DNA from: a virus
Strand: one strand, 5' to 3'
Virus record (IMG/VR): IMGVR_UViG_3300048837_000975
Coordinates: 61,691 to 125,690 of that record
DNA: 64,000 nt
Both the position numbers and the translations under genes were made by a program. Below the pieces are notes generated by a model. The model made no database searches. It had not been told where the DNA came from and saw nothing but the letters and a program-made list of their open reading frames with translations. Of the stretch, positions 2,043 to 63,848 are shown piece by piece (position 1 is the first letter of the stretch; the number at the start of each line of letters is the position of its first letter).

Positions 2043-2674
2043 ATGGGCTAATCGAAAAACTGGTTGCCGAGCTTGGTGCGCTGGACCTGGACGCGCGTGT
2101 TGAGGCGCTGAACAAGATTCGTGAGGCGCTTCACGATGTGAGCCCGTTCAAGGAGGAACCGGTCGACTTCGTTCGATGGGTTAAGTCCGATACAGTTTCC
2201 GCGAACGCGTGGAATCCAAATCACGTCGCTCCGCCTGAGATGAAGCTGTTGGAGCTGTCGATTGTCGCTGATGGGTACACTCAACCAGTGGTAGGGTACG
2301 CCATTGAATCCGGCTACGAGGTTGTTGACGGCTTTCACAGAAATCTAGTGGCCAAAACTTCACCTCAAGTACGCGAACGAGTGAAGGGTTACCTTCCGAT
2401 AGTCCGGATCAAATCCGACCGAGAAGATAAGGGAGATCGGATGGCGGCCACAATACGCCATAACAGGGCTCGCGGAAAACATGAGGTAATGGCCATGTCA
2501 ACCATAGTAGCCGACCTAATCAAGCGCAACTGGTCAGAAAGTCGTGTTGCTACAGAGCTCGGAATGTCCGCTGATGAGGTTTTACGCTTGCGTCAGGTTA
2601 CAGGGCTAGCAGAACTGTTCGCGGATCGCGAGTTCTCAGAGGCTTGGGAGATCGTTGAGGACACTCCGGAATGA
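2039..2674 (+). CDS. ParB-like nuclease-domain protein (IbrB-like), 211 aa
   Basis: The ATG at 2039 overlaps the IbrA-like stop, and is preferred to an in-frame start about 100 bases upstream inside that gene. The middle holds a ParB/sulfiredoxin-fold pattern: 'TQPVVG', then 'EVVDGFHR', and 'ATIRHNRARG' resembling the ParB ENxxR-type box. The C-terminal third looks helix-turn-helix-like ('SESRVATELGMSADEVLRL'). IbrB-type proteins occur next to IbrA. Binding target unknown. It overlaps the following GIY-YIG gene by 4 bases. Confidence 0.85.
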   Translation: MNGLIEKLVAELGALDLDARVEALNKIREALHDVSPFKEEPVDFVRWVKSDTVSANAWNPNHVAPPEMKLLELSIVADGYTQPVVGYAIESGYEVVDGFHRNLVAKTSPQVRERVKGYLPIVRIKSDREDKGDRMAATIRHNRARGKHEVMAMSTIVADLIKRNWSESRVATELGMSADEVLRLRQVTGLAELFADREFSEAWEIVEDTPE

Positions 2675-3948
2675 AGCTTGAGCAGATGCTAGAAACGGAC
2701 GGCTGGAGCAAAAGTTCGCTGTACTCCGACGAATCAGAATACCCATGGTATGTGTATAGGCATATATGCGAGCCAACTGGCAAATGCTACGTTGGTTATT
2801 CGGACAAGCCGATCAGGCGGTGGTTAGAGCACGTCAGGAACTCAAGAAATCAAAACAGCGATTGCTATGATACGAAGCTAAGTCGAGCGATCAGAAAATA
2901 TGGAGAGACACAGTGGTCGCACGAGATAGTAGCAAAGACCGACTGCCAAGAGTCGGCGGCTACACTTGAGCTGAAGTACGTTTCCGTGTTCAATTCGTAC
3001 GAAGATGGTTACAACTCCACGCTGGGCGGAGACGGAGCATCTCAAAAAGAGCGACTTACTGAAGAGTTCATCCTCGATAGGATCCGTGACCACAAGAAGC
3101 TCACGGGAAAGTTTCCGACCACGTCGTCGCTTTCGGTTGCCGGCGGATACGAAGGAGACACCTGGAACGGATACAGCCTAGCACTGTCGCAGGGATTTAG
3201 AGGGTTGCCCGGCGGATCCTCTCTGGCAAAGCTTCTGGCAAAGCACTTTGATCATGCAACAAATATGACCAAAGTGGACCTGACCGAAGAGTTCATTCTT
3301 GAGAGAGCTACCGAGCACTTTAGAATCTTTTCAAGGTGGCCCCGCGGGTCTGATGGAGATGTTATAGGAGGACATCCCGGCGATACCTGGTCAGGGTATC
3401 ATAGTGCTTTGTCGAAAGGTCACAGAGGTCTTCGCGGAGGAACGTCACTGGGAGAATTCCTACTATCAAAGACAGGTTACAGGAACCACAAAAACAAGCA
3501 GAAGCTTACCGAGTCGTTCATTGCAGAAGCTGCAACAAAGTACAAGGATAAAAACGGACGATGGCCAACATCAAAATCTGGTGATGTAGAATTTGGTCAT
3601 CCAGGAGATACCTGGATTGGTTACGACGGTGCGCTTGAGAAGGGTCTCCGCGGCCTGCCAGGCGGAAGCTCACTAGCTAGACTGTTAGACGAGCAAACTG
3701 ATTATGTGAACCACAAGACGAAGCCGGATCTAACTGAAGAATTTATCCTGAACAGGGCAGCAGAATACCTGTCAGAAACAGGAAAGTTACCAACCAAGCA
3801 TTCCGGTAGCGTAAGAAACGGTCACCCTGGCGATACGTGGTGCGGATACGCAGCATCCCTGGAAAGGGGAACAAGAGGTCTTCCTGGCAAATCAACCTTG
3901 CCGAAGCTCCTCAAACCCCTGAAGCTCGTCAAGCCCACTCAAACTTGA
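2671..3948 (+). CDS. GIY-YIG endonuclease with four tandem C-terminal modules, 425 aa
   Basis: Residues about 25-120 form a GIY-YIG nuclease domain: 'YVYRH', 'GKCYVGYSD', the Arg of 'RRWLEH', and 'YGETQWSHEIV'. After it come four copies of a module of about 73 residues, each opening with 'LTE.FI' and containing 'GHPGDTW.GY' (first copy 'GYEGDTW'), then 'G.RGLPGGSSL'. The modules are probably DNA-recognition units, as in homing-type nucleases (inference). A homologue with three modules is encoded on the other strand at 46888-47961. It may act as a free-standing homing endonuclease or help degrade host or competitor DNA. Confidence 0.85.
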   Translation: MKLEQMLETDGWSKSSLYSDESEYPWYVYRHICEPTGKCYVGYSDKPIRRWLEHVRNSRNQNSDCYDTKLSRAIRKYGETQWSHEIVAKTDCQESAATLELKYVSVFNSYEDGYNSTLGGDGASQKERLTEEFILDRIRDHKKLTGKFPTTSSLSVAGGYEGDTWNGYSLALSQGFRGLPGGSSLAKLLAKHFDHATNMTKVDLTEEFILERATEHFRIFSRWPRGSDGDVIGGHPGDTWSGYHSALSKGHRGLRGGTSLGEFLLSKTGYRNHKNKQKLTESFIAEAATKYKDKNGRWPTSKSGDVEFGHPGDTWIGYDGALEKGLRGLPGGSSLARLLDEQTDYVNHKTKPDLTEEFILNRAAEYLSETGKLPTKHSGSVRNGHPGDTWCGYAASLERGTRGLPGKSTLPKLLKPLKLVKPTQT

Positions 3949-4529: not shown

Positions 4530-5201
4530 ATGAGCTACTATCCTACGAATGGTTTGGGCGCGTCCGCGTCTGTTTCGGCCTCTGCCTCGTTGAGCGTTGG
4601 TGCGAAGAAGCCGGCTCCGAAGAAGCCTGCGCCCAAGAAACCGGCTCCGAAGAAGCCTGGTCTCATCACTTCGTTCGCCGCGAAGATAGCTGCGGCTACG
4701 AAATCTGCCGCTGATGCTAAGAAAAAGGCACAGATTGAGGCCGCCCGCAAAGCAGCCTCAGCTGCCGCATCAAAGCCTGGCACACCGAAGGCTGCTTCTG
4801 TTCCCGCTGCGCGGCCAGCGCTGCTGAGCGCTGCTGGTCACGCTATCAAGGCTGCGTCTACGCCAGTTGCTCGCCCAGCGCTCCTGAGCGAGTCCGGCGC
4901 GAAGGCGAACGCCGATGTGATGAATCCGGAAAAGCAGAGCATTTCGACCGACGGAAAGTGCTACGCTGGTAAGGTTCTTTTTGAGAACCGTGGAATCAGC
5001 TTCTGTATGCCTCCCGCCGCGTACGCGCAGATGCAGCTCGAAAAGGCTGGCCCCGCCGTCGTCTCGGTGAAGCCCGAGGATGCCATTAATTCTGATCAGA
5101 AGACGGTGGAGGTGGAGCCAAAGAGTAACCTTCCTCTGAAGATTGCTGTCGGTGGGTTGATTGCTGCCGGAGCCATCACGCTGATTATTGTGGCAAGCTA
5201 A
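4530..5201 (+). CDS. Lys/Ala/Pro-rich protein with C-terminal membrane anchor, 223 aa
   Basis: The N-terminus has a 'NGLG' motif (residues 7-10) and an Ala/Ser run, followed by a 'KKPAPKKPAPKK' repeat. The middle is an Ala-rich helix with 'IEAARKAAS', a relative of the module repeated in the next gene. Two near-identical short segments around 'ARPALLS' follow, then a domain with two Cys, then a hydrophobic C-terminal segment of about 20 residues. The Lys/Pro stretch could contact DNA. Probably a virion membrane protein (inference). Confidence 0.75.
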   Translation: MSYYPTNGLGASASVSASASLSVGAKKPAPKKPAPKKPAPKKPGLITSFAAKIAAATKSAADAKKKAQIEAARKAASAAASKPGTPKAASVPAARPALLSAAGHAIKAASTPVARPALLSESGAKANADVMNPEKQSISTDGKCYAGKVLFENRGISFCMPPAAYAQMQLEKAGPAVVSVKPEDAINSDQKTVEVEPKSNLPLKIAVGGLIAAGAITLIIVAS

Positions 5202-6223
5202 TGTCGGTTCTTACATCAATAGCAAAAGCTCAAGCTGCCGCTGCCAAGGTTGTCGCAGAAGTGAAAGCTAAAGCGGCAGCTGACGCCAAGAAGAAGGCTG
5301 CGATTGAGGCTTCGCGTAAGGCATCATCCGAGATGGCTGCAAAGTCAGCCGCCTACGCCGCTCAGCAGGAGGCAAAGGCTCGTGCCGCTCAGCAAGCTGC
5401 GATCGAAGCCTCACGCCGAGCGTCTGCGGAGCAAGCCGCCAGATCTGCTGCGGCAGCTGCCCAGTCTGAAGCGAAAGCAAAGGCTGAACGCGCAGCTATG
5501 ATCGAGGCATCCCGGAGGGCGTCGGCTGAGATGGCTGCGAAGTCTGCTGCAGCGGCTGCTCAGGCCGAGGCTAAAGCCAAAGCGGAGCGCGCGGCGATGA
5601 TCGAAGCCTCGCGCAAAGCTTCGGCGGAGCAAGCTGCTAAGGCTGCTGCCTATGCTGCTCAACAGGAAGCTGCCGCCAAAGCTGCTGAAGCGAAGCGTCT
5701 AGCTGCGATCGAGGCGTCCCGCAGGGCTTCAGCCGAGATGGCGGCGAAGTCTGCAGCGTACGCTGCTCAACAAGAAGCTGCCGCCAAGGCTGCTCAACAG
5801 GAGGCTATCGAAGCTGGGCGGGCAAAGCTGTCTCAGCAGGCGTCTGCGGCTGCCGCTCAATCCGCGCAGATCGAAGCTGCTGCGAAGCAAACCGAGTCGC
5901 GAGTGTCGATGGAAGCTGCTCGCGCTGCTGACATGGCGGCTCGCGCTGCCGCTTCAGCAAAGACGGCTGAGGATGCTCGCGCAGCACAGATCGCACAGAC
6001 CATCGCTTCAGCAAAGGCTGCCGAAGCGAACCGCATCAAGCAAGAGACCGATTCCGTTCTGGTTCAACCGGAGAAGTCAGCCATAACCCCGATTGACATC
6101 AAGGAATTTGCTCTAAAGCAAGAACCGGTGCAGAATAGACCCAAGGTGTCTAAGGTGGCAGTCGCTGCGGGCGCCGGCATTCTGGGAATCGGTGTGGTTG
6201 CATATCTAGTGTATCGGAAATAA
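5201..6223 (+). CDS. Alanine-rich repeat protein with C-terminal membrane anchor, 340 aa
   Basis: The start overlaps the preceding stop (TAATG). Residues about 30-210 are at least five copies of an Ala-rich unit built on 'AIEASRKASSEMAAKSA', spaced about 33-38 residues. It should form a long helical rod or coiled coil. A short linker leads to a C-terminal segment (about 'VAAGAGILGIGVVAYLVY') ending in RK. The same unit occurs singly at 11114-11500 and 15467-15856. It may be a spacer or spike rod anchored in a membrane (inference). Confidence 0.78.
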   Translation: MSVLTSIAKAQAAAAKVVAEVKAKAAADAKKKAAIEASRKASSEMAAKSAAYAAQQEAKARAAQQAAIEASRRASAEQAARSAAAAAQSEAKAKAERAAMIEASRRASAEMAAKSAAAAAQAEAKAKAERAAMIEASRKASAEQAAKAAAYAAQQEAAAKAAEAKRLAAIEASRRASAEMAAKSAAYAAQQEAAAKAAQQEAIEAGRAKLSQQASAAAAQSAQIEAAAKQTESRVSMEAARAADMAARAAASAKTAEDARAAQIAQTIASAKAAEANRIKQETDSVLVQPEKSAITPIDIKEFALKQEPVQNRPKVSKVAVAAGAGILGIGVVAYLVYRK

Positions 6224-19813: not shown

Positions 19814-20563
19814 ATGGCAAAAATTGTTTCTATTCGCGAGCGCGTTCATCAGCCCTTCTATGACCACCTGATCCGTACGGCTGGTATGGCGCAGGGCTCG
19901 GTCCAGGACACGAACGCTCTGTTCACCTCGAACGGCGCGCGCACCGAGGCGACCACGAACTTGATCAACGGCGCGACGCTGCCGTCTGACCAGTCGCACG
20001 TGACCCTCGTGCTTCGCGTTTTCACGTGGTTCCGTAACCCCGTTCTCCGCGTTGCGGGTGCGGATGCTGGTGAAGTGGCTGGCAACGGCGATTATGACGA
20101 TCTGGACGAGTTCCAGACCGGCGGGATCGCGGTCGGCAACGCTCCGGGTTCCACGAAGGACGTGTACCGTCTGGCGTGGCAGTCGAGCGAGCAGCTTCAC
20201 TGGACGTTCGGTGCGGGTCTGAAGCCCAGCATTGACAATATGCCTACTTGGTACTTCCCGACGGGTGGCGGCCTCCTGTCGGACCTCGCCGGCAGCACGG
20301 ACCTCGTGCACCTCAACAACGGTATGCCCTCGCATGAGAGCATTCTCCGCCTCGGCCGCGCGGTGCTCATCCCCCCGCGTCAGAACATTCTCTGCACTGC
20401 CAAGATTTTCAGCCTTCCCGACGCCGGGAACGCGCTGGCGTTCGGCACGGTGCAGGGCAGCCGCAACATGCTGTCGCTCCGCGACAACCTGAACGCGGTC
20501 GACCTCGTGCAGAAGTGCGTGAGCTTCTGTATCGATGGTCTGTTCAGCCGCGACGTTCAGTAA
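19814..20563 (+). CDS. Candidate small major capsid protein, beta-rich, 249 aa
   Basis: Monocistronic, with a strong promoter, long-leader hairpin and strong terminator, as expected for a very abundant protein. The sequence is beta-rich with few charges clustered, begins 'MAKIVSIRERVHQPFYDHL', and ends 'DGLFSRDVQ'. It has no HK97-type features and is too short for that fold. A jelly-roll capsid subunit is my inference; a structure prediction would decide. It is the target of all five guides in the adjacent mini-array. The start codon is not preceded by a close ribosome site; AGGAAAG lies about 17 bases upstream. Confidence 0.7.
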   Translation: MAKIVSIRERVHQPFYDHLIRTAGMAQGSVQDTNALFTSNGARTEATTNLINGATLPSDQSHVTLVLRVFTWFRNPVLRVAGADAGEVAGNGDYDDLDEFQTGGIAVGNAPGSTKDVYRLAWQSSEQLHWTFGAGLKPSIDNMPTWYFPTGGGLLSDLAGSTDLVHLNNGMPSHESILRLGRAVLIPPRQNILCTAKIFSLPDAGNALAFGTVQGSRNMLSLRDNLNAVDLVQKCVSFCIDGLFSRDVQ

Positions 20564-20595
20564 CAGCGGATTCTGTCGAAATCGACAGGGCGAAG

Positions 20596-20624
20596 GGGCT
20601 CCGGGGTTGACTCGGGGCCCTTTT
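20596..20624 (+). terminator. Intrinsic terminator after the capsid-like gene
   Basis: GGGCTCCG (20596-20603) pairs with CGGGGCCC (20613-20620) and TTTT follows. A second small perfect hairpin (CTGTCGA/TCGACAG) lies just after the stop codon at 20573-20588. The promoter of the mini-array is embedded in this terminator. Confidence 0.7.
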
Positions 20625-20634
20625 CGTCTACAAT
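20607..20634 (+). promoter_or_regulatory. Promoter of the CRISPR mini-array, embedded in the terminator
   Basis: TTGACT (20607-20612) and TACAAT (20629-20634) with 16 bp between, the best match to a sigma70 consensus near the CasPhi gene. Transcription should begin near 20641, right at the first mini-repeat at 20642. The -35 is in the loop of the terminator hairpin. Confidence 0.6.
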
Positions 20635-20641
20635 GTAGAGC

Positions 20642-20863
20642 ATTGCGCTCTGAGGAGCGACATACAGAAGCTGACGCACCGTCGCAAATTGCGCTCTGAG
20701 GAGCGACATGCTGGGCTTCAGACCTGCGGCACCTATCATTCCACAAATTGCGCTCTGAGGAGCGACTAGAAGGGCTGATGAACGCGCTCGCGAATAGAAT
20801 TGCGCTCTGAGGAGCGACAGCCGCGACGTTCAGTAACAGCGGATTTGCGCTCTGAGGAGCGAC
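20642..20863 (+). CRISPR. Five-unit CRISPR-like mini-array with shortened repeats, guides match the capsid-like gene
   Basis: The 20-nt repeat 'attgcgctctgaggagcgac' occurs at 20642, 20688, 20747, 20799 and 20844 (the last with one change). It equals the 3' end of the 36-nt repeat of the large array and forms CGCTC-TGAG-GAGCG, the 5-bp stem and 4-nt loop typical of CasPhi crRNAs. Spacers are 26, 39, 32 and 25 nt, and a fifth guide runs on from 20864. Each guide matches 19814-20563 or its stop region (see findings). The array is on the same strand as, and just upstream of, the nuclease gene, so both may share a transcript. Confidence 0.85.
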
Positions 20864-20951
20864 ACTTGGTACTTCCCTACACACTGTAATCTGGAGTGGT
20901 GCAAAAAAAGTTCTTGCTCCGCTTCGCATGGGCTGCTACAACGCTGGAGCG

Positions 20952-23255
20952 ATGAAGAAAACGACAAATCTGAAGATTGAAAATGGCGTATCGCCGCTTG
21001 CGCAGATGACTCGCAAGCATTTTCCGGGAAAAAGGTTTCCAGCTAGCGTCTTGAAGCCAGCTGGCAGGAAGCTCAAGGATCACGGTGAGCAAGCTGCGAT
21101 CGAATTTCTGCAGGCCAACATTGATGTTCCTTACGGGAACTTTAAGGCGCCGGCAAAGTGTAATGTTGTCGCTACTAGTCGCCCGTATAGCGAGTGGCCG
21201 CTTTACAAGTTCTCATCTGAGCTTCAGAAAGCAGTCTTTGCACTCTCAAAGGATAGGCTGATGGAGATTGAACCATCAAAGCAATCCGACGCAGAGAACG
21301 AGAAGTTCCTGTCAGCGATCGGAGTCAGCGCGGATCCGTCAATTAACGTGACGTTCGTTAGCGCGTGCATTTCAAAGGCCGTGCATACGTACCTTGGAAT
21401 GGAGAAGAAGGCTGAGAACAAGTACCAGAAGAAGTTGTCAAGGTGTCGCTCAGAGAGCGAGCTAAGTAGCGTCACACCAGAAAACGTATACAATGAAGAC
21501 GGAACGCTTTCTGACGGGTGGCGGCCCGGTTTCAATGCTAACCTATACGGAAACTCAAATAGCAAGCTGAGTCTATTCGGATCCGTTAGGTCGCACAACA
21601 AGGTGGAGCTGCCTGTGTGGCTTTCTGAATACCGAGAGTGGGCAAAGAATCGCTCAAAGGATTCAAAGATCAATGAGTACAGCGCAAGCGTTGATCGACT
21701 GTCGATTCCGGAGGGCCAGCCCGGTCACGTTCCGCTTTGGCAAAGAGACTCGTCTAAGCGAACTAAGCCGGGCGGTGGAGAGATCAAAGAAGGGGTTCGT
21801 CGTCATCGATGGTACTCGAACCGAAACAACGCGAACCGAAGGAACAAGGTTGACCAGGCAACCAGGTTGGCCGCATCGGCTATGGAGATGGTTCTTGCAA
21901 TCGCATTCTTCGGAGAGGACTGGGTTCTCTTTGACATTCGCGGACTACTTAGGAACGCTCGCTACCGCAAGCTTGTGAACAAGAATACGACATATGGCGA
22001 TCTGATGGAGTTGTTTACGGCAGATCCTGTTCTTGATACAAAGCGAGGAATCATCACCGCATCGTATAAGGACACGACTCTCAAGATCGTTCAGCAGACA
22101 ATAGTCGGCGAAAAGAAGTCCAAATCCAAGATTCTGGAAGAGGTCCAGAAGAACGGGCCGGTTGCTGTTGTATCGATCGATCTCGGTGTAAATGAGCCCG
22201 TGTCGTACCGTGTGTCGAGGGTTGATGTAGCTGGAGGGAACGCCATCGTTGCCGAGCTTGCCGCTGAAGGATTCATGAGCAACGAACTAAAGAAAGAGAT
22301 TTCTAGTTATCGGGAAAAGTCGGACGAGCTTAACGGCGATCTTCGTGAGAAGGCAGTCCTTTCCCTCTCGGACGAAATGCAGGCAGAGATTCGCCGAGTC
22401 GACGCAACGAATGCCAGTGACTCGAAGAACAGAATCTGCGAAATGCTCAGCCTGGATCCGGAAAGCGTTGACTGGTCAAAGATGACCACGCAAACCAGGT
22501 TCATTTTCAACAAGCACGTTGAGAACGGCGGGGATCCTAACGTCCTTCTGTTCACTCCGACCGAGGACAAAAAGAACAAAGGTAAGAAGAGCAAGAATAA
22601 GAAGGGCGAGTACGGAGACAGGGTTCCGCACTCCGACAGTGGGATCGCTCGGAACATTGCCAGAGAGAAGCTCAGTATGGAGACTTGCGAGGCTCTCAAC
22701 AAAGCAAAACGGGAACTGCAACAAGAAGATCCTCGGTATGGTAAGCTTTCCAAGCGAAAGCAGGAGTTCGCTCGACGCGTAGTGAACGGAGTGGTTGTGC
22801 GCGCACAGGAAGTCACTGGGTGTGATAACGTTGTGCTGGTCGTTGAGAAGCTCAACGTATCAAACAAGATGTTTAGCGGAAGCGGAAAACGAGCTCCAGG
22901 ATGGGACAACTTCTTCGTTCACAAGAAAGAGAACCGCTGGTTTATTCAGGCGCTACACAAGGCGTTCACCGACAAGGCTGCGCACAAGGGCATTCCTGTA
23001 ATCGAAATTAAACCGAGCTATACAAGTCAGACTTGCCCAGCGTGCGAGCATTGTGACAAGGACAACCGAGACGGGGTTCACTTCTGCTGCACCAGGTGCG
23101 GGTTCACCGGTCACGCGGACCTCAACGTAGCGTGCTTCAACATTGAGAAAGTTGCTCTTACTGGAGAAGCTATGAGCGGACCCGGCAGCGCAACTGCGCA
23201 CAAAAAGACTCGCAAACCAAAGAAGGCTATGGTAGAGTCAGATAAAGCCGCGTAA
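20952..23255 (+). CDS. cas12j: CasPhi (Cas12j) RNA-guided DNA nuclease, 767 aa
   Basis: Single-effector type V nuclease of the phage-borne CasPhi family. Family hallmarks are visible: N-terminal 'KHFPGKRF', 'RGLLRNARYRKL' before the RuvC core, and 'GSGKRAPGWDNFF..KKENRWF' near the end. The RuvC catalytic acids are all present: Asp in 'SIDLGVNEP' (about D410), Glu in 'VVEKLNV' (about E632) and Asp in 'HADLNVA' (about D723). A CxxC...CxxC zinc ribbon lies between about 690 and 715. Length fits the family (700-800 aa). CasPhi matures its own crRNA with the RuvC site and cuts DNA next to a T-rich PAM. ATG 20952 has TGGAG 5-6 bases upstream and is preferred to the ATG 24 bases earlier. No cas1, cas2 or cas4 is nearby, as usual for this family. 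Confidence 0.95.
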   Translation: MKKTTNLKIENGVSPLAQMTRKHFPGKRFPASVLKPAGRKLKDHGEQAAIEFLQANIDVPYGNFKAPAKCNVVATSRPYSEWPLYKFSSELQKAVFALSKDRLMEIEPSKQSDAENEKFLSAIGVSADPSINVTFVSACISKAVHTYLGMEKKAENKYQKKLSRCRSESELSSVTPENVYNEDGTLSDGWRPGFNANLYGNSNSKLSLFGSVRSHNKVELPVWLSEYREWAKNRSKDSKINEYSASVDRLSIPEGQPGHVPLWQRDSSKRTKPGGGEIKEGVRRHRWYSNRNNANRRNKVDQATRLAASAMEMVLAIAFFGEDWVLFDIRGLLRNARYRKLVNKNTTYGDLMELFTADPVLDTKRGIITASYKDTTLKIVQQTIVGEKKSKSKILEEVQKNGPVAVVSIDLGVNEPVSYRVSRVDVAGGNAIVAELAAEGFMSNELKKEISSYREKSDELNGDLREKAVLSLSDEMQAEIRRVDATNASDSKNRICEMLSLDPESVDWSKMTTQTRFIFNKHVENGGDPNVLLFTPTEDKKNKGKKSKNKKGEYGDRVPHSDSGIARNIAREKLSMETCEALNKAKRELQQEDPRYGKLSKRKQEFARRVVNGVVVRAQEVTGCDNVVLVVEKLNVSNKMFSGSGKRAPGWDNFFVHKKENRWFIQALHKAFTDKAAHKGIPVIEIKPSYTSQTCPACEHCDKDNRDGVHFCCTRCGFTGHADLNVACFNIEKVALTGEAMSGPGSATAHKKTRKPKKAMVESDKAA

Positions 23256-23443
23256 TGATCTAAAACGCCGAGATCCTCTGAACCGGAGGCGCTCGCAAAC
23301 AGAAATTGACAACAAGTTCGACAGGATGCCATCTGAGCATAGAATGGCACCAGGAGGCACGAGCGCGAGATCGCTCCCGGATCGGAAAGGCTCTCGCAAA
23401 CCGTTCGGTAACCGCGCGAATCTACAGGGTCTCACGGAGACCC
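23256..23443 (+). promoter_or_regulatory. Leader of the large CRISPR array
   Basis: 188 bases between the nuclease stop and the first repeat. A TTGACA lies at 23306-23311 but no good -10 follows at 16-18 bp; TAGAAT at 23340-23345 is an alternative -10. A perfect hairpin, GGGTCTC-ACG-GAGACCC (23427-23443), touches the first repeat. Repeat degeneration at the far end (short last spacer, mutated seventh repeat) agrees with the leader being on this side. Confidence 0.5.
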
Positions 23444-23972
23444 ATAGAAACCCCTACAAATTGCGCTCTGAGGAGCGACGACCGCCAAAGCAGCCAAGGT
23501 GCCAGCGCTACCGACATAGAAACCCCTACAAATTGCGCTCTGAGGAGCGACTGACCACGGGATCGCTCGCCGTCGTGAACGGAATGATCATAGAAACCCC
23601 TACAAATTGCGCTCTGAGGAGCGACCCAGTGTTCGTGACCTCTACCGCCGTCTACTTTTGGCATAGAAACCCCTACAAATTGCGCTCTGAGGAGCGACTT
23701 GGTGCCAGCCTCACCACGACCGCCGCATCAGGCGCGATAGAAACCCCTACAAATTGCGCTCTGAGGAGCGACTGAGTCCACCCAATCACTATCGAGCATA
23801 TGCCACTCCTATAGAAACCCCTACAAATTGCGCTCTGAGGAGCGACCGCGACGAACGCAAAGAGCTTGTGGCTGCGGCCCGCCATAGAAACCCCTACATA
23901 TTGCGCTCTGAGGAGCGACTTAGCTTCGCCGAGGATCTAGAAACCCCTACAAATTGCGCTCTGAGGAGCGAC
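23444..23972 (+). CRISPR. CasPhi CRISPR array, eight repeats and seven spacers
   Basis: 36-nt repeats start at 23444, 23516, 23590, 23663, 23737, 23811, 23884 and 23938 (the last lacks its first base). The repeat begins 'atagaaacccctacaa' and ends with the mini-array unit, with stem CGCTC/GAGCG. Spacers are 36, 38, 37, 38, 38, 37 and 18 nt; the last is unusually short. Repeat 7 has one substitution. By eye I found no match of these spacers in this window, unlike the mini-array. Their targets are probably other phages or plasmids (inference). Confidence 0.97.
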
Positions 23973-24018
23973 ACTCAAACGGAACGAACGTCAGGGGAGA
24001 CGCCACAAAACGTAAAGC

Positions 24019-24047
24019 TTGATTGAATTCCTGCGTCATGGTAACTT
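24019..24047 (+). promoter_or_regulatory. Promoter of the second capsid-candidate operon
   Basis: TTGATT and TAACTT with 17 bp between. A small leader hairpin CCGCC-ATGTT-GGCGG follows at about 24064-24078, then AGGAG and ATG 24099. Confidence 0.5.
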
Positions 24048-24098
24048 GCTATGTGTTGCAGCCCGCCATGTTGGCGGAGACCCAATCATAGGAGAACC

Positions 24099-25031
24099 AT
24101 GGCAAATATCGATCTGACTCAGCTCATTCAATCCGCTAATTTTGCGAGCGCGGCCGCGCGTAAGCACGAGCAGCAAATCTCTGGCATCGGAATGCGCGTT
24201 GCGGAGATTCAGAAGGAGTTCGGCAACCTTCGTGATGCTCTTTCGCGCGTTGAGATCTCGTCCCGCATGGGCGATCCCGGAATTCAGCGTGTTGAGAACA
24301 TTCCCGGCCGACGAGTGCCCTTCGATCTGCTCGTAGACATTCCGATCGCTGCGGGCAGCACCGCTGTTCAGCAGGGCACTATCACGATCAGCCAAGAAGG
24401 CCCGTTCGTGGCGGTCTCGCGCTTCGCTACGCTGCTTTCTGCGTACGAGTACACCTACACGGAGCCCGGCACTTCTAGCACGACGCGTTACCAAGGCCGC
24501 AGCTACGGCCGGTACCGCCCGATTCACTCTGCGTGGGATCTGAACGATGGCAATCCGATTGCGACTACGACTCTGACGACTCCGCCCACCTTCCCTGGTA
24601 CCGGTGCGCCTCTGATCGTGTCTCCGAGCAACGCGAGCAGCTTCCGCACGATGGAGGGAGACTTCCGAATCAAGTTCGAGAACGCCGGTTCCAGCTTCCC
24701 CAGAAGCAACCTCGAAGTTCCGAGCCCGTTCTGGACGAAGAGCATCAACGAGGCATTCGATCTTGGGGCTCTGGATGTGTTTGAGCGCGGCGAGGTGCTG
24801 AGCTTCCGTGTTCTTCCGCTTCATGCCGCAAACGCCTCCTATGGCAACCTCGCTGGCTACGGAACGGGCGACTATCCGTACATTGAGTCGCAGTGGGATG
24901 CTGTCGAAGGTATTGACGATACGGTCGACGCGGAAGCCACGGTGGATCCGATTACGCGTTACCCGAACTCGATTCTGACTATTGGCTTCCACGGATACCG
25001 GATCATCCAACAGCCGGGCGTCGTCTACTAA
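24099..25031 (+). CDS. Candidate large capsid protein, beta-rich, 310 aa
   Basis: ATG 24099 follows AGGAG at good spacing. The N-terminal 60 residues are helical ('LTQLIQSANF' to 'LSRVEI'); the rest is beta-rich with many Gly, Pro, Thr and aromatic residues and no membrane segment. Together with 19814-20563 it could form a two-protein capsid of the kind seen in viruses with paired single jelly-roll subunits. That is inference: no sequence family is recognised. Confidence 0.65.
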   Translation: MANIDLTQLIQSANFASAAARKHEQQISGIGMRVAEIQKEFGNLRDALSRVEISSRMGDPGIQRVENIPGRRVPFDLLVDIPIAAGSTAVQQGTITISQEGPFVAVSRFATLLSAYEYTYTEPGTSSTTRYQGRSYGRYRPIHSAWDLNDGNPIATTTLTTPPTFPGTGAPLIVSPSNASSFRTMEGDFRIKFENAGSSFPRSNLEVPSPFWTKSINEAFDLGALDVFERGEVLSFRVLPLHAANASYGNLAGYGTGDYPYIESQWDAVEGIDDTVDAEATVDPITRYPNSILTIGFHGYRIIQQPGVVY

Positions 25032-25039
25032 GGAGCATT

Positions 25040-25870
25040 ATGAGCGATTTCGCGAGGCAATTTAGCCAAGCGTTCGCGCAGACCAACCCGCACATCGGTG
25101 GCAATCGTTCTGCCAGTGTGCGGGTTGGACAACCGGCGCCAATTCCCGAGTCCGTAAGGGGTCGGGGGTGTAGCGACGCTGCGCGCACTGTTGTGGCTGG
25201 CGGAGCAATGTCACAGTTGCTTCTGCACCCTACGTTCGTTCCGTTTGAGCTTACGTTCCGTAAGCTACCCGACGACGGCGTTTATACCGCTAACAGAATA
25301 AACCAATACGCATTTGAGCTTGGATCCTTCACGGTTCCCACTTCGATGTCATTGGCTGTCGCGGAGTACTCGTTTCGACCTTACCGCATCTCTGGGGCTG
25401 CTCCTGGAGAAGCTGTTCCGCTCGAGACAGGTAGATTGTCGTTGGAGCTTGCGTACGACCTGAACATTGACCAGTACCGTAAGGGAAACATCAAGACACA
25501 GGTTGTCCCGCGGCTACCTTCGCCTGCACAGAACGCGTTTGCTGGTAATCCTTCTGGCGGATCTGTGTTTCAGCAGTCGGTTGGCGGGCTGGCTGGATCG
25601 GCGTCGCTGGCGAGCTTCAACTCTGACGTTACATCCGGGCTCACCAACTATGGTGACGCTCTCATCATTCAGGGAACAAAGACTCAGCAGGGTCCTGAGA
25701 AGTTCCCGTTCACCTATTACGTTAGGTCCAACCAGGCTGTTCAGATGCGAGTGATCGTGTTTGGGCAGATCACGATTCCTCTTGCGTTCTTCGAGGGCGT
25801 GTTGAGCGGGTATCTGATGCCGCAGAACACTCTTGAGTCGATGCTTGACGGCGTGAGTCCCTGTCAGTGA
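25040..25870 (+). CDS. Candidate minor capsid or vertex protein, beta-rich, 276 aa
   Basis: AGGAG precedes ATG 25040, 8 bases after the previous stop. A disordered N-terminal 55 residues precede a beta-rich body ('FVPFELTFRKL', 'LSLELAYDL', 'MRVIVFGQITIPLAFF'). No membrane segment, no known motif. Position in a two-gene operon with the previous protein suggests a structural partner. Confidence 0.65.
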   Translation: MSDFARQFSQAFAQTNPHIGGNRSASVRVGQPAPIPESVRGRGCSDAARTVVAGGAMSQLLLHPTFVPFELTFRKLPDDGVYTANRINQYAFELGSFTVPTSMSLAVAEYSFRPYRISGAAPGEAVPLETGRLSLELAYDLNIDQYRKGNIKTQVVPRLPSPAQNAFAGNPSGGSVFQQSVGGLAGSASLASFNSDVTSGLTNYGDALIIQGTKTQQGPEKFPFTYYVRSNQAVQMRVIVFGQITIPLAFFEGVLSGYLMPQNTLESMLDGVSPCQ

Positions 25871-42290: not shown

Positions 42291-42475
42291 CTTACGAATA
42301 CAAGTGTTCAGCGTGCGGTCACGAATGGGAAGCGGAACAGAAGATTTCGGAAGAGCCGCTCAAGTCGTGCCCAAAGTGCGGCCTTACCGAGGCGAAGCGC
42401 CAGATCAACGCTGGAGGCGGGTTCAGGCTTGCTGAGGGCGGAGTTGGTTGGGCAAAGAACCTGTACAGCAAGTGA
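42287..42475 (+). CDS. FmdB-like zinc-ribbon protein, 62 aa
   Basis: Starts 'MTYEYKCSACGHEW', with a second pair 'CPKCG' 22 residues later: a single zinc ribbon of the FmdB/putative-regulatory type, common in phages and bacteria. Role unknown. Confidence 0.85.
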   Translation: MTYEYKCSACGHEWEAEQKISEEPLKSCPKCGLTEAKRQINAGGGFRLAEGGVGWAKNLYSK

Positions 42476-42479
42476 AGTT

Positions 42480-43610
42480 ATGAGAACAACTCGGCGGAAC
42501 AGTGCTGTATGTTGCGCCGATTGCGGCGTTTTGTTCGGTTGTTTGCCAATGACAAGACTAACCATCACAGACCTTGAGGACGTGCGTAAAGGACACGGAT
42601 CGCCTTCTAATACCGTCCCCTTGAACACGATCTTGCTTGGAGATTGCCTAAATCTACTTCGGACCATGCCACCGAGCTGTGTCGACCTGATCGTGAGTTC
42701 GCCGCCGTACAACCTAGGAAAGGAGTACGAGGCTCGCTGTGCCCTTGATGTCTATCTGGAGGAACAGACCGAGGTTCTGCGCGAGTGCGTCCGCGTGCTC
42801 AAGCCGAGCGGATCAATCTTCTGGCAGGTCGGGGCGTTTTCAGATGATGGAGCATTGATTCCACTCGACATCCGCTTCTTTCCAATACTTGAAAGACTCG
42901 GACTCATTCCCAAAAACCGAATTGTTTGGGCTCGACAACACGGGCTTCATGCGACGAAAAAGTTTTCTTGTCGGTACGAGACCATCCTGTGGTTTACGAA
43001 GACTCCTGAATATGTATTCCATTTAGACCCGATTCGGGTGCCCCAGAAGTATCAGAACAAAAAGCATTTTCGGGGTGACCGGAAGGGTGAGTTTTCATGC
43101 AATCCCGACGGCAAGAATCCAGGCGATATCTGGATGTTTCGCAACGTTAAGCACAATCACGAAGAACAAACGATTCATCCGTGTCAGTTCCCGGAAGACC
43201 TCGTCGCGCGCATTTTGCTCGCTACCACTGACGAGGGCAGTGTGGTTTTGGATCCATACATGGGTACAGGCACCGTCGCAGTCGTGGCGCGCGACCATGG
43301 TCGACGCTTCGTGGGCGCCGAACTTGATCCCAAGTACCACGCGGTTGCGGTGCGGCGGCTTACGGGAACTCCTGACGCTAACGGGATGTTCCCGAACCTG
43401 AAGACTCTGCGCGACTATTGCGAGAGAACTGGAGCGTCGACTTCTAGGTTCCGCTTCGATGTGCAAGTTGGCGCTGTCGCCAGCGAGCGCTCAAAGGCGA
43501 AGATTTTCTCCGAAGAGCATCATCTTGAGGAACTCGAACGGCGACTCGGTTACGAGGAGGGCGCGTTTGCCGCGAAGCGTCGGGGCGCGACGGTCCTGGA
43601 AAGCAAGTGA
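42480..43610 (+). CDS. DNA methyltransferase, N4-cytosine/N6-adenine type, 376 aa
   Basis: Catalytic motif IV 'SSPPYNLG' comes before the SAM motif 'LDPYMGTGTVAVVA', the beta-class order. It should methylate an exocyclic amino group in a specific DNA site, probably to protect phage DNA. The start could instead be ATG 42549; the extra N-terminal part has three Cys ('CCADCG'). One of three methyltransferases in 4 kb. Confidence 0.88.
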   Translation: MRTTRRNSAVCCADCGVLFGCLPMTRLTITDLEDVRKGHGSPSNTVPLNTILLGDCLNLLRTMPPSCVDLIVSSPPYNLGKEYEARCALDVYLEEQTEVLRECVRVLKPSGSIFWQVGAFSDDGALIPLDIRFFPILERLGLIPKNRIVWARQHGLHATKKFSCRYETILWFTKTPEYVFHLDPIRVPQKYQNKKHFRGDRKGEFSCNPDGKNPGDIWMFRNVKHNHEEQTIHPCQFPEDLVARILLATTDEGSVVLDPYMGTGTVAVVARDHGRRFVGAELDPKYHAVAVRRLTGTPDANGMFPNLKTLRDYCERTGASTSRFRFDVQVGAVASERSKAKIFSEEHHLEELERRLGYEEGAFAAKRRGATVLESK

Positions 43611-46887: not shown

Positions 46888-47961
46888 CTAGCCCTGCTCA
46901 GGGAAACCTGGGCGGGGCATTTTTATTGTCGACACGAGCTTAAAGAGAGAGGACCCGCCAGGTAGCCCACGCAGACCCCTTCTGAGGGCGTTTTCGTAGG
47001 ACTGCCACATGTCACCGCTCCCGTCATTTACTGGTCCGCTTTTATGAGACGGAAGAGTTCCTGTCCTTGTAAGAAATTCAGAAGCCATTTGGAGTATGTG
47101 TCCCTCGCTGAGCTTAGGAAGAGACTTCTGGTTCCTGAACCCCCTGTGACGCTTTAGCAAATCAGAAAGAGAAGACCCTCCAGGCAGACCCCTTGTTCCC
47201 CTGCGAAGACTTACGCAGTACCCGGCCCAGGTGTCGCCGCCTGTTCCGTCAACGGTCCCGCTTAGATAATTTGGCAGCTTTCCGTTCCTGCGAAGGAATT
47301 CATCTGCTCTTTGAAGAATCAGTTGCTCAGTGAGAGGCTCTAGCCTAAGCTTGTGCCTAGCGCCGCACGCATCGCTTAGCAGATTAGCCAGAGAAGATCC
47401 GCCTTTCAGCCCCCTGGTTCCGGATCTAAGATTTGCGTCGTACGACGCCCAGGTGTCGCATGTTCCTGAGACGCTTCCGCTTTTGTAGGAAGGCCACTTT
47501 CCTGTTTGGCTTTTGAATTCAACAGCCTTCCAAAGTATATAGGTCTCAGACAGTCTTGATTTTAGAGCTGCATTCTCGCCGCCAACAGAACCGTTGTATC
47601 CGCCCACAAAAGTCTTGTACAGATCAACGAGTTCGCGCTCCTGATCAAGAGCGATATCTCGCGACGGGCACGCCCTTAGCAAGCTCATGCTAAATGAGCG
47701 TTCCCCGTATTTGCGTATGGCCCTGTATAGCTTGTTTTTTGTGCCGCCCTTGATCCTGGCGCAAGAAAAATGAGACCTGAGTCTATAGTGCGGGTTCTCA
47801 GAAATACCAATGTAAGATTTGCCATTTGTGGAACACGTAATCATATAAACATAGCACAGAGGAGCCCCTCCGTCGCACAGATCTAAGAAGTCATTGTGTC
47901 TGCTAATCGTTGTCATCAAACAGAAAAGCCAGAGTCTCCCCTGGCTAGCTGCGGCCGACAT
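46888..47961 (-). CDS. GIY-YIG endonuclease with three tandem C-terminal modules, 357 aa
   Basis: GIY-YIG core: 'YVYMI', 'GKSYIGISE', Arg in 'YRLRSHF', then 'YGERSF'. Three modules follow, with 'GDTW.GY'/'CDTWASY'-type centres and 'G.RGL.GGSSL' ends, the same unit as in 2671-3948. GAGG 7 bases before ATG 47961 supports this start over ATG 47916. It has its own promoter. The two proteins are paralogues with different module numbers, so probably with different DNA targets. Confidence 0.85.
   Translation of the reverse strand: MSAAASQGRLWLFCLMTTISRHNDFLDLCDGGAPLCYVYMITCSTNGKSYIGISENPHYRLRSHFSCARIKGGTKNKLYRAIRKYGERSFSMSLLRACPSRDIALDQERELVDLYKTFVGGYNGSVGGENAALKSRLSETYILWKAVEFKSQTGKWPSYKSGSVSGTCDTWASYDANLRSGTRGLKGGSSLANLLSDACGARHKLRLEPLTEQLILQRADEFLRRNGKLPNYLSGTVDGTGGDTWAGYCVSLRRGTRGLPGGSSLSDLLKRHRGFRNQKSLPKLSEGHILQMASEFLTRTGTLPSHKSGPVNDGSGDMWQSYENALRRGLRGLPGGSSLFKLVSTIKMPRPGFPEQG
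46891..46924 (+). terminator. Intrinsic terminator of the structured RNA region
   Basis: GCCCTGCTCAGG pairs with CCTGGGCGGGGC over 12 positions around a GAAA loop, followed by ATTTTTA. It overlaps the 3' end of the convergent GIY-YIG gene. Confidence 0.75.
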
Positions 47962-59551: not shown

Positions 59552-59572
59552 CTTTCAAACCTTTCTTTCAAC

Positions 59573-59624
59573 GGACTCGTCAGCGACGGCCTTACCGTCG
59601 GACCGGGCGAACCCGGTTTCGTCC
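59573..59624 (-). ncRNA. Type II hammerhead ribozyme 1
   Basis: Read on the minus strand: GGAC, GAAA, stem III CCGGG-TTCG-CCCGG, TC (cleavage site), stem I CGACGG/CCGTCG around TAAGG, CTGACGA, GTCC. The GGAC/GTCC pair is the open stem II. All core residues of the hammerhead are present. It begins directly after the TAA of the gene upstream, with expected cleavage between 59601 and 59600. Confidence 0.88.
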
Positions 59625-60503
59625 TTACAGAACCGGCATAGCGTTCGGATCCGCCATGACAATCAGTGCTAGCATTGACATTGCGTCTTCTAGGCGCTTG
59701 CGGACGGCCTCGCTCTTGACCCCAAGTAGCCGCTCGTATGACTCGAGCTTGTCAGCCGCAACCTTGAGGCGCTCTTCTCTAATTCTCACGCTGCGAACGG
59801 TCCGGTTCTTAGTCGTTTGAACCAGCTCGCCCGCGCTAGCTTCCTCAACGATCGCGTTGATCGCTTCCTCGGTTTCGCGGTTAACGGCGTCGATCACGGC
59901 CTCGACCGCGTCCTCCGACTTTAGTGCAGGAATTGAATAAACCTTGTGGGAAGAAACTTCCTCAATGACATTCGAGATCTTCTCGAGCACCTCAATCCGG
60001 TCGGCCGGAACGAAGTACACTCCGCCGCGTGGCCGAAGCGGAACGCCGTTGCAGCGTCCGGCTACCATGGTCGTCAGCCACATGCTGAACTCGGTCACCC
60101 CGAGGTTCTCTCGCTCGTTCGTGAAAGCTTCGTTAATCTGTTCGGCAACCTCGCGGTTGCCCTTGAACTCCAGCTCAGAGTCTCCAGCGAGGCGGACCAC
60201 CACGACCGTTTCGTGGTCGAGCGGGTTCTCGTCGTCGCCCGTGCGAGCCTCAGCAAGGAGCGCGAAGGTTCCCTCTTGAACCGGACGAACGATTCGGCGA
60301 CCCTTGGCGAATTTTGCAAGCACGCTCCGGAGAGTTGCGGAAGCGCCAGGAGCGCTCGGGCAGTCGTCAGGATCCAGGCCGGAATCTTCCCACGCCTTTT
60401 GAAGCGCCGCGTACGGAACCGCACCGTCGAGGCTCCACATGACAATCGCGCCACACTTCTCGGATTCAACGTTCGTCACGATCAGATTCTTGATATTTTC
60501 CAC
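59625..60503 (-). CDS. Large hypothetical phage protein, 292 aa
   Basis: GTG 60503 with GAGG 7 bases upstream is preferred to a TTG two codons before. Long alpha/beta protein with a helical C-terminal third ('REERLKVAADKLESYERLL'). A protein conserved in many large phages has this layout, but I cannot name it. It lies between two hammerhead ribozymes. Confidence 0.72.
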   Translation of the reverse strand: MENIKNLIVTNVESEKCGAIVMWSLDGAVPYAALQKAWEDSGLDPDDCPSAPGASATLRSVLAKFAKGRRIVRPVQEGTFALLAEARTGDDENPLDHETVVVVRLAGDSELEFKGNREVAEQINEAFTNERENLGVTEFSMWLTTMVAGRCNGVPLRPRGGVYFVPADRIEVLEKISNVIEEVSSHKVYSIPALKSEDAVEAVIDAVNRETEEAINAIVEEASAGELVQTTKNRTVRSVRIREERLKVAADKLESYERLLGVKSEAVRKRLEDAMSMLALIVMADPNAMPVL

Positions 60504-60530
60504 TTTCAACCTCGCTTGAATTCTTTCAAC

Positions 60531-60582
60531 GGACTCGTCAGCGCACGCCTTACGTGCGGACCGGGTTTCCCCGGTTTCGTCC
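60531..60582 (-). ncRNA. Type II hammerhead ribozyme 2
   Basis: Same order as copy 1: stem II GGAC/GTCC, core GAAA and CTGACGA, stem III CCGGG/CCCGG closed by a GAAA tetraloop, stem I CGCACG/CGTGCG. Stem I differs from copy 1 at several paired positions with pairing kept. It lies 31 bases after the upstream stop and 27 bases before the downstream start. Confidence 0.88.
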
Positions 60583-60613
60583 TATCTACCATGCTAAGAG
60601 AAGCTACGCAACA

Positions 60614-61945: not shown

Positions 61946-61962
61946 TAAACTCTCCCTTCAAT

Positions 61963-62014
61963 GGACTCATCAGCGCTGGCTTCACCAGCGGACCGGGTTT
62001 CCCCGGTTTCGTCC
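61963..62014 (-). ncRNA. Type II hammerhead ribozyme 3
   Basis: Stem III CCGGG/CCCGG with GAAA loop, stem I CGCTGG/CCAGCG around TGAAG, core CTGATGA, stem II GGAC/GTCC. It lies 8 bases after the MoxR stop. Confidence 0.88.
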
Positions 62015-62022
62015 TTTTTACT

Positions 62023-63186: not shown

Positions 63187-63203
63187 CTTCTACTCCCTTC
63201 AAT

Positions 63204-63255
63204 GGACTCATCAGCGCTGGCTTCACCAGCGGACCCGCCGGAGCGGGTTTCGTAC
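63204..63255 (-). ncRNA. Type II hammerhead ribozyme 4
   Basis: Stem III is CCCGC/GCGGG with a TCCG loop, a fully compensated change from the other copies. Stem I CGCTGG/CCAGCG, core CTGATGA. Stem II is GTAC/GTCC with one mismatch, so this copy may be weaker. It starts one base after the upstream TAA. Confidence 0.82.
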
Positions 63256-63256
63256 T

Positions 63257-63469
63257 TTACGCAAGTTCCATCGCGCCGTCTTCTGCGAACGTTGCCCGAT
63301 CCATGACCCACGAATCAAGGAGATCTCTGATAGCACGGCGCAAAGCCTTGTCGCAAGCGATTCCGAGATCAAGCAGATCCTTTTCTCCGCACCATACCGC
63401 GATCCGATCCTCGGGACGGATCTTGGAGATCAAACGCTTTGCAGTCTTGCTAGAATCTTTTCGTGACAT
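63257..63469 (-). CDS. Small hypothetical protein, 70 aa
   Basis: AAAGGC before ATG 63469. Basic first half, acidic second half with 'DLLDLGIACDKALRR'. No motif recognised. Framed by two hammerhead ribozymes. Confidence 0.64.
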   Translation of the reverse strand: MSRKDSSKTAKRLISKIRPEDRIAVWCGEKDLLDLGIACDKALRRAIRDLLDSWVMDRATFAEDGAMELA

Positions 63470-63489
63470 AATCTTGCCTTTCAACGTGT

Positions 63490-63541
63490 GGACTCATCAG
63501 GCGGCGCCTTACGCCGCGACCGGGTTTCCCCGGTTTCGTCC
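63490..63541 (-). ncRNA. Type II hammerhead ribozyme 5
   Basis: Stem III CCGGG/CCCGG with GAAA loop, stem I GCGGCG/CGCCGC around TAAGG, core CTGATGA, stem II GGAC/GTCC. One base after the upstream TAG. Confidence 0.88.
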
Positions 63542-63542
63542 T

Positions 63543-63848
63543 CTACTTTGACTTTCCGATCGCTTTCTCTAGGTCAGCCGACCAGCGTTCGATCCCTTCG
63601 GATGATAGGCGCCAGGTGTTGTCCTTTAGCCACATGCTCTTACCGCGGGTTTCGTAATCAGACTTATCAAGCTTCACTACGCTGCGCTTTCCACCGAACG
63701 CTGCGATCAGAACGAATCCGTCACTGCCGTAATCGAGAGTTAGGCTGAGATCCTCTCCCTTTACCTGTACGCCTGGCACGCTGACCCGGCGAACCTTTCC
63801 AGTGCTCCACCGGACCTTTGAAAGCGATTCTTTCAATGCTTCAATCAT
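63543..63848 (-). CDS. Hypothetical beta-rich protein, 101 aa
   Basis: GGAGAAG precedes ATG 63848. Beta-rich with basic strands and a helical end. No family recognised. Framed by two hammerhead ribozymes. Confidence 0.66.
   Translation of the reverse strand: MIEALKESLSKVRWSTGKVRRVSVPGVQVKGEDLSLTLDYGSDGFVLIAAFGGKRSVVKLDKSDYETRGKSMWLKDNTWRLSSEGIERWSADLEKAIGKSK

Follow-up and report, generated by a model that had tools for sequence, protein, structure and literature searches.

The window analysed here comprises 64,000 nucleotides and covers the 3' half of a linear IMG/VR phage record of 125,690 nt. Three features follow one another on its plus strand: a CRISPR mini-array (20639-20887), a gene encoding a CasPhi/Cas12j nuclease of 775 amino acids (20928-23255) and a large array (23444-24009). 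Together they occupy an insertion slot (20564-24098), delimited by synteny with relatives, between a conserved virion-region gene (19814-20563, plus strand) and the gene at 24099-25031.

The mini-array was resolved into five truncated repeats and five guides by re-reading the sequence and comparing the repeats. The repeat cores, TTGCGCTCTGAGGAGCGAC, begin at 20643, 20689, 20748, 20800 and 20845, and guides 1 to 5 start at 20662, 20708, 20767, 20819 and 20864. The mini-array repeats (20643-20863) correspond to the 3' 19 to 24 nt of the 36-nt repeat of the large array, the 5' part being lost. The 19-nt core is identical in all 13 repeat copies of the two arrays, and we take it to be approximately the handle retained in mature CasPhi crRNA. 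A sigma-70-like promoter (TTGACT-16-TACAAT, 20607-20634, plus strand) ends 8 nt before the first mini-array repeat, and a promoter-like site (TCGACA-16-TAGAAT, 23318-23345, plus strand) precedes the large array. Three promoter-like sites were counted in the region against 2.2 expected in shuffles, and it is their position, not their score, that supports them as promoters. No plus-strand terminator-like site was seen between the mini-array and casPhi; therefore the two may be co-transcribed.

All five mini-array guides match the upstream gene (19814-20563), over 14 to 33 nt starting at guide position 1; alignment re-derived every position given in the first-pass annotation. Guide 1 (20662-20679) matches the minus strand of 20515-20532 at 17 of 18 positions, with the mismatch at guide position 12 and the 5' flank ATCG. 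Guide 2 matches the minus strand of 20216-20232 at 17 of 17 positions and then diverges (5' flank GTCA). Guide 3 (20767-20799) is identical to the minus strand of 19828-19860 over 33 nt, again behind GTCA, and guide 4 (20819-20845) to the plus strand of 20546-20572 over 27 nt, a site that spans the stop codon and is preceded by GTTC. Guide 5 matches the plus strand of 20246-20262: the first 14 nt are exact, and a mismatch at position 15 leaves 16 of 17 (16 of 18 if counted over 18 nt). Its 5' flank, GCCT, does not conform to TBN. The differences between guides 1 and 5 and the target gene are synonymous. The full-length matches of guides 3 and 4 suggest that these two are younger.

The nuclease is full-length and clearly a CasPhi protein. 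Its phmmer E value was 8e-133 against CasPhi-3 and 4e-124 against CasPhi-2 (residues 23-768), and it shares 39-41% identity with CasPhi-2, CasPhi-3 and Cas12j-SF05 over the aligned C-terminal part. Residues D418, E640 and D731 align with the CasPhi motifs that form the single RuvC active site with its three acidic residues; judged by these catalytic residues, the enzyme looks intact. The large array, 3' of the gene, has eight 36-nt repeats, each ending in a hairpin and GAC, and guides B1 to B8, mostly of 37 nt. Guide B7 (23920-23937) is only 18 nt long, about the length of a CasPhi hybrid, and the other guides of this array are 37 nt. A TnpB-like gene (OrfB, PHROG 506) is present elsewhere in the same genome (L023:8475-9671).

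The last guide of the large array, B8 (23973-24009, plus strand), is also self-directed. It matches the minus strand of 25233-25250 at 17 of 18 positions, the mismatch being at position 1, so that the match begins at guide position 2; its 5' flank is GTAA, not TBN. The matched gene (25040-25870), which also belongs to the virion region, is the second downstream of the cassette. For guides B1-B7, self-matches over the whole genome were no better than those of shuffles (100 per guide), and a search of the large array against phages and plasmids found no matches. Effector homology and guide matches thus bear out the first-pass annotation of a CasPhi with a second, self-directed mini-array. Its statement that all five mini-array guides are self-directed is correct as far as it goes but understates the pattern. 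Self-directed guides amount to 6 of 13, and all of their targets lie in cassette-flanking genes, less than 1.3 kb away.

The significance of the matches was assessed by comparing the first 17 nt of each guide, and 100 shuffles of each, with the whole genome. Guides 1-4 were equalled by 0/100 shuffles and guide 5 by 1/100. Exact 17-mer matches would be expected by chance about 1.5e-5 times per guide in a genome of 125,690 nt. The shuffle test thus rules out chance as the source of the matches, in line with the first reading of the sequence. The three bases 5' of sites 1-5 are TCG, TCA, TCA, TTC and CCT; as previously noted, four of the five fit the TBN PAM, and this has P = 0.004 given the base composition. 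With B8 included, T stands at -3 in 5 of 6 sites (P = 0.001). The matches of guides 1, 2 and B8 end at 17-18 nt and that of guide 5 at 14-17 nt, which upholds, for guides 1 and 2, the point made earlier about guide length. The guide-target hybrid of Cas12j3 does not extend beyond 17 nt, and more than 12 nt are needed for activation and cutting (PMC8298400). Undirected copying of local DNA would not readily produce PAM-like flanks, anchoring at position 1 and match ends at 17-18 nt together. The proposal that the array itself is shielded by repeats ending in GAC also holds.

Conservation of the guide sites was examined in near relatives. Within their genes, the sites of B8 and of guides 3 and 5 rank among the 1-3% of windows with the highest conservation. 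Those of guides 1 and 2 lie where conservation is poor, and testing the five guides jointly gave p = 0.07. Support for the guide sites as conserved sites overall is thus weak.

The target gene encodes a protein of 249 amino acids. It had been called capsid-like, a description that we cannot sustain: searches of Pfam, PHROG and PDB found no relative of the protein, and a structure model of moderate confidence (deeper alignment, pLDDT 70) gave no significant fold match. The weak top matches, all with E > 0.001, include jelly-roll coat and C1q-like proteins. A first model from a shallower alignment (pLDDT 33) was unusable. Relatives of the gene were present in 25 IMG/VR loci, and none was found in GenBank phages.

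In these 25 loci the target gene adjoins the homologue of gene 24099-25031, usually with a gap of 118-407 nt. The same layout was not found in related phages: no CasPhi turned up in the ten records searched whole, and in four relatives the slot is filled by a homing-endonuclease ORF of HNH or LAGLIDADG type. The ORF in L030 is an HNH endonuclease (PHROG E 2e-55) and that in L047 a LAGLIDADG endonuclease (Pfam E 1e-12); the slot ORFs of L045 and L046 are homologues of this latter enzyme (E 1e-36 and 6e-29, respectively). When the slot nucleases were used as queries against the ~20-kb loci of the relatives, matches were found in the slot only, a result that is partly circular as the queries were taken from the slot. 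A comparison slot one gene downstream is expanded in L026 and L027, and its ORFs resemble, by eye, peptidoglycan-binding domains and not nucleases. The G+C content of casPhi and its cassette is 0.51, against 0.60-0.63 in the upstream flank. An assembly join of unrelated DNA was ruled out, both flanks of the cassette being syntenic with relatives.

The guides were also compared with the relatives' versions of the target gene. Of the relatives, just L045 and L047 match guide 3 at 17/17; for guides 1 and 2 the best was 13/17 across all relatives compared. For all five guides, the phage's own gene was the best or equal-best match among these relatives. A relative carrying the exact guide sequences was considered as a source allele and rejected for the records searched, from which very near relatives may be missing, the only IMG/VR hits (L050 and L051) being unrelated contigs. 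The repeat was sought in other viral contigs and not found. Scans of IMG/VR, GTDB genomes and GenBank phages revealed no second CasPhi locus; they relied on short peptide patterns and may have missed near-identical records, and such absence is not proof.

The genome carries further nuclease genes and repeats outside the slot. Three related genes resembling GIY-YIG homing endonucleases are found at 2671-3948 (plus strand) and 46888-47961 (minus strand) of the window and at L022:14307-15431 (minus strand); the phage is rich in homing nucleases. A PAPS-reductase/DUF3440 gene (837-2042) lies near one of the GIY-YIG genes. Similar genes occur at L046:12107-13324 and L047:10407-11621, in both cases directly after the LAGLIDADG-type endonuclease of the slot, and this gene is possibly cargo of homing islands. 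Near the 3' end of the window, an imperfect repeat of ~66 nt occurs in five dispersed copies (59562-59627, 60520-60585, 61952-62017, 63193-63258 and 63479-63544). Its internal inverted arms appear to covary (e.g. GCGCTGG..CCAGCGG), and it resembles a structured RNA or regulatory element present in repeated copies. Five copies of a tandem repeat of ~99-108 nt are found at 5283-5795, inside the gene at 5201-6223.

The cassette shares features with several known systems. CasPhi/Cas12j systems (CasPhi-1, -2 and -3) have a related effector, a 36-nt repeat with a hairpin and GAC end, and a compact array beside the gene. Here, in contrast, there is a second, mini-array with handle-length repeats and apparently its own promoter, and it is aimed at the neighbouring gene. 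Free-standing homing endonucleases such as SegF, SegG and MobE (intronless homing) likewise lie in an intergenic slot, and their cut sites are in neighbouring genes hundreds of bp off, where the cassette has guide matches, but their specificity comes from a protein DNA-binding domain and not from crRNA; the many target sites and the mostly intact donor sites are further differences. The cassette nuclease belongs to the Cas12 family (Cas12f1-like TNB, CasPhi) and is without homology to the LAGLIDADG, HNH or GIY-YIG families; it may work like a homing endonuclease but is not one by descent. In Tn7-like CAST elements, delocalized crRNAs also provide guides outside the main array, with repeats that are partly alike and a target beside the element (PMC11656645). 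CAST effectors, however, do not cut and act via a transposase, whereas in the cassette the RuvC residues are present and no transposase lies between the flanking genes, which rules out a CAST. Mini-CRISPR arrays carried by viruses are similarly short and directed against genes of related viruses. Those arrays use host Cas proteins and match other viruses, whereas here the phage has its own CasPhi and the best match is to itself; no compared relative is matched better than self, which speaks against classing this as an array for inter-virus conflict. SegB of T4/T6, although a protein-guided GIY-YIG enzyme, is a homing nuclease with sites in its own locus and poses a similar self-cutting puzzle (PMC13096335).

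We propose, with a probability just under even (about 0.48), that the CasPhi cassette is an RNA-guided free-standing homing, or marker-exclusion, element with private homing guides. The mini-array, casPhi and large array would together make up a cassette of mobile type, placed between two conserved genes of the virion region. The mini-array would have its own promoter, and its transcript would yield handle-length crRNAs for loading into CasPhi. In co-infecting relatives that lack the cassette, CasPhi would cut the adjoining gene and, guided by B8, also one on the far side. Recombinational repair templated by cassette-bearing genomes would then carry the cassette, with its flanks, into the cut genome, resulting in homing and localized marker exclusion; alternatively, the rival would simply be disabled. 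The other guides of the large array would serve conventional targets, and cutting of the donor itself would be inefficient or repaired. A more specific form is that this is a natural nuclease-active CRISPR homing element, a phage gene drive in which casPhi and a handle-length private array cut the slot-flanking genes of relatives and replace the slot's protein homing endonucleases. This we put forward more tentatively.

The homing reading is favoured because the mini-array guides all match the gene beside the cassette, with B8 matching one on its other side, and because protein homing endonucleases occupy the same slot in relatives. It also draws support from the match ends at 17-18 nt, which fit the Cas12j3 hybrid length, from the four TBN flanks in five, and from the 19-nt handle core, kept while the 5' part of the repeat is gone. 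The distances here (~0.05-1.2 kb) fit the geometry of free-standing homing endonucleases, B8 and guides 3 and 5 hit conserved windows, and the cassette has a lower G+C content than its upstream flank. Moreover, cutting of its own locus by a phage homing nuclease is documented for SegB (PMC13096335). In T4-like phages, genes for free-standing homing endonucleases lie in intergenic regions flanked by conserved genes, and the enzymes cut at a distance of hundreds to thousands of bp; repair must reach homology flanking the nuclease gene, leading to marker exclusion around it (PMC2988022). Phage nuclease genes also tend to adjoin essential genes (PMC10448857).

Repression or timing of the target gene, attack on relatives and copy control had all been suggested by the first-pass annotation. 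Attack survives as the proposed mechanism, but the slot comparison, together with targets on both sides of the slot, makes RNA-guided homing or marker exclusion the better option for its role. Attack without copying would amount to interference competition, in which the cassette kills or cripples co-infecting relatives through cuts in an essential virion gene and the donor survives through timing, compartment, DNA modification or repair. There are precedents: phage arrays against structural genes of other phages (PMC7162821), virus mini-arrays against relatives (PMC11656645) and a homing nuclease, gp210, used for competition (PMC11620839). In addition, the phage encodes an N6/N4 DNA methylase (42429-43610, Pfam E 4e-55). 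Interference leaves unexplained, however, why the self-directed guides hit cassette-flanking genes and not essential genes anywhere, and none of the compared relatives was matched better than the phage itself. We consider it unlikely as the whole account.

The best match of the five guides to the phage's own gene would be expected if CasPhi and its guides bound this gene and repressed or timed its expression, or trimmed late genome copies. The short or imperfect matches of guides 1, 2 and 5 recall known crRNA-like regulators, and the promoter and array lie directly downstream of the supposed regulated gene. Such self-regulation seems slightly less likely again than pure interference. Indeed, all RuvC acidic residues are present, which rules out a nuclease-dead repressor, and hybrids of more than 12 nt, exceeded by guides 2-4, activate Cas12j3 cutting (PMC8298400). 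The sites lie within the gene on both strands and not at its promoter, and both the nuclease slot and B8 would be left unexplained. Finally, the guides could be by-products or relics that arose from the adjacent gene through self-acquisition or local template switching, in a system that is silent or tolerated. Guides 3 and 4 reproduce local sequence over their full length, and among the genes checked none for adaptation was seen. This is the most doubtful of the explanations: PAM-like flanks, conserved 19-nt handles, matches that start at position 1 and decay distally, and a promoter-like site where the array begins indicate selection for guide function.

The main difficulty for the homing reading is the donor. 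Classical homing donors are altered or poorly cut. Here, sites 2, 3 and 4 are perfect over 17 nt and have a TBN flank, whereas sites 1, 5 and B8 have a mismatch, no TBN or both. Guides 2, 3 and 4 are therefore expected to cut the donor, and self-cleavage must be tolerated, limited or useful; from its sequence, the donor gene appears a full target for these guides, with no protection visible. It also counts against homing that none of the relatives examined offers a better target than the phage, that joint conservation of the guide sites reached only p = 0.07, with guides 1 and 2 in poorly conserved stretches, and that the pattern-based scans found no second CasPhi cassette for comparison. For SegB, recombination-dependent repair and inefficient donor cutting have been suggested by authors who regard the matter as open (PMC13096335). 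The N6/N4 DNA methylase is a candidate for self-protection or anti-restriction. Together with two glycosyltransferase-like genes it could matter, but would not tell the donor from close relatives.

CRISPR effectors are usually viewed as weapons of immunity or, when catalytically dead, as guides for transposons. If the homing reading is true, a nuclease-active CRISPR cassette in the role of a homing endonuclease, directed at the surroundings of its own insertion, would parallel the laboratory CRISPR gene drive in nature and connect CRISPR with homing elements in a new way. Whether CasPhi drives its own inheritance, and how a phage lives with self-matching guides, would become questions testable in phage crosses.
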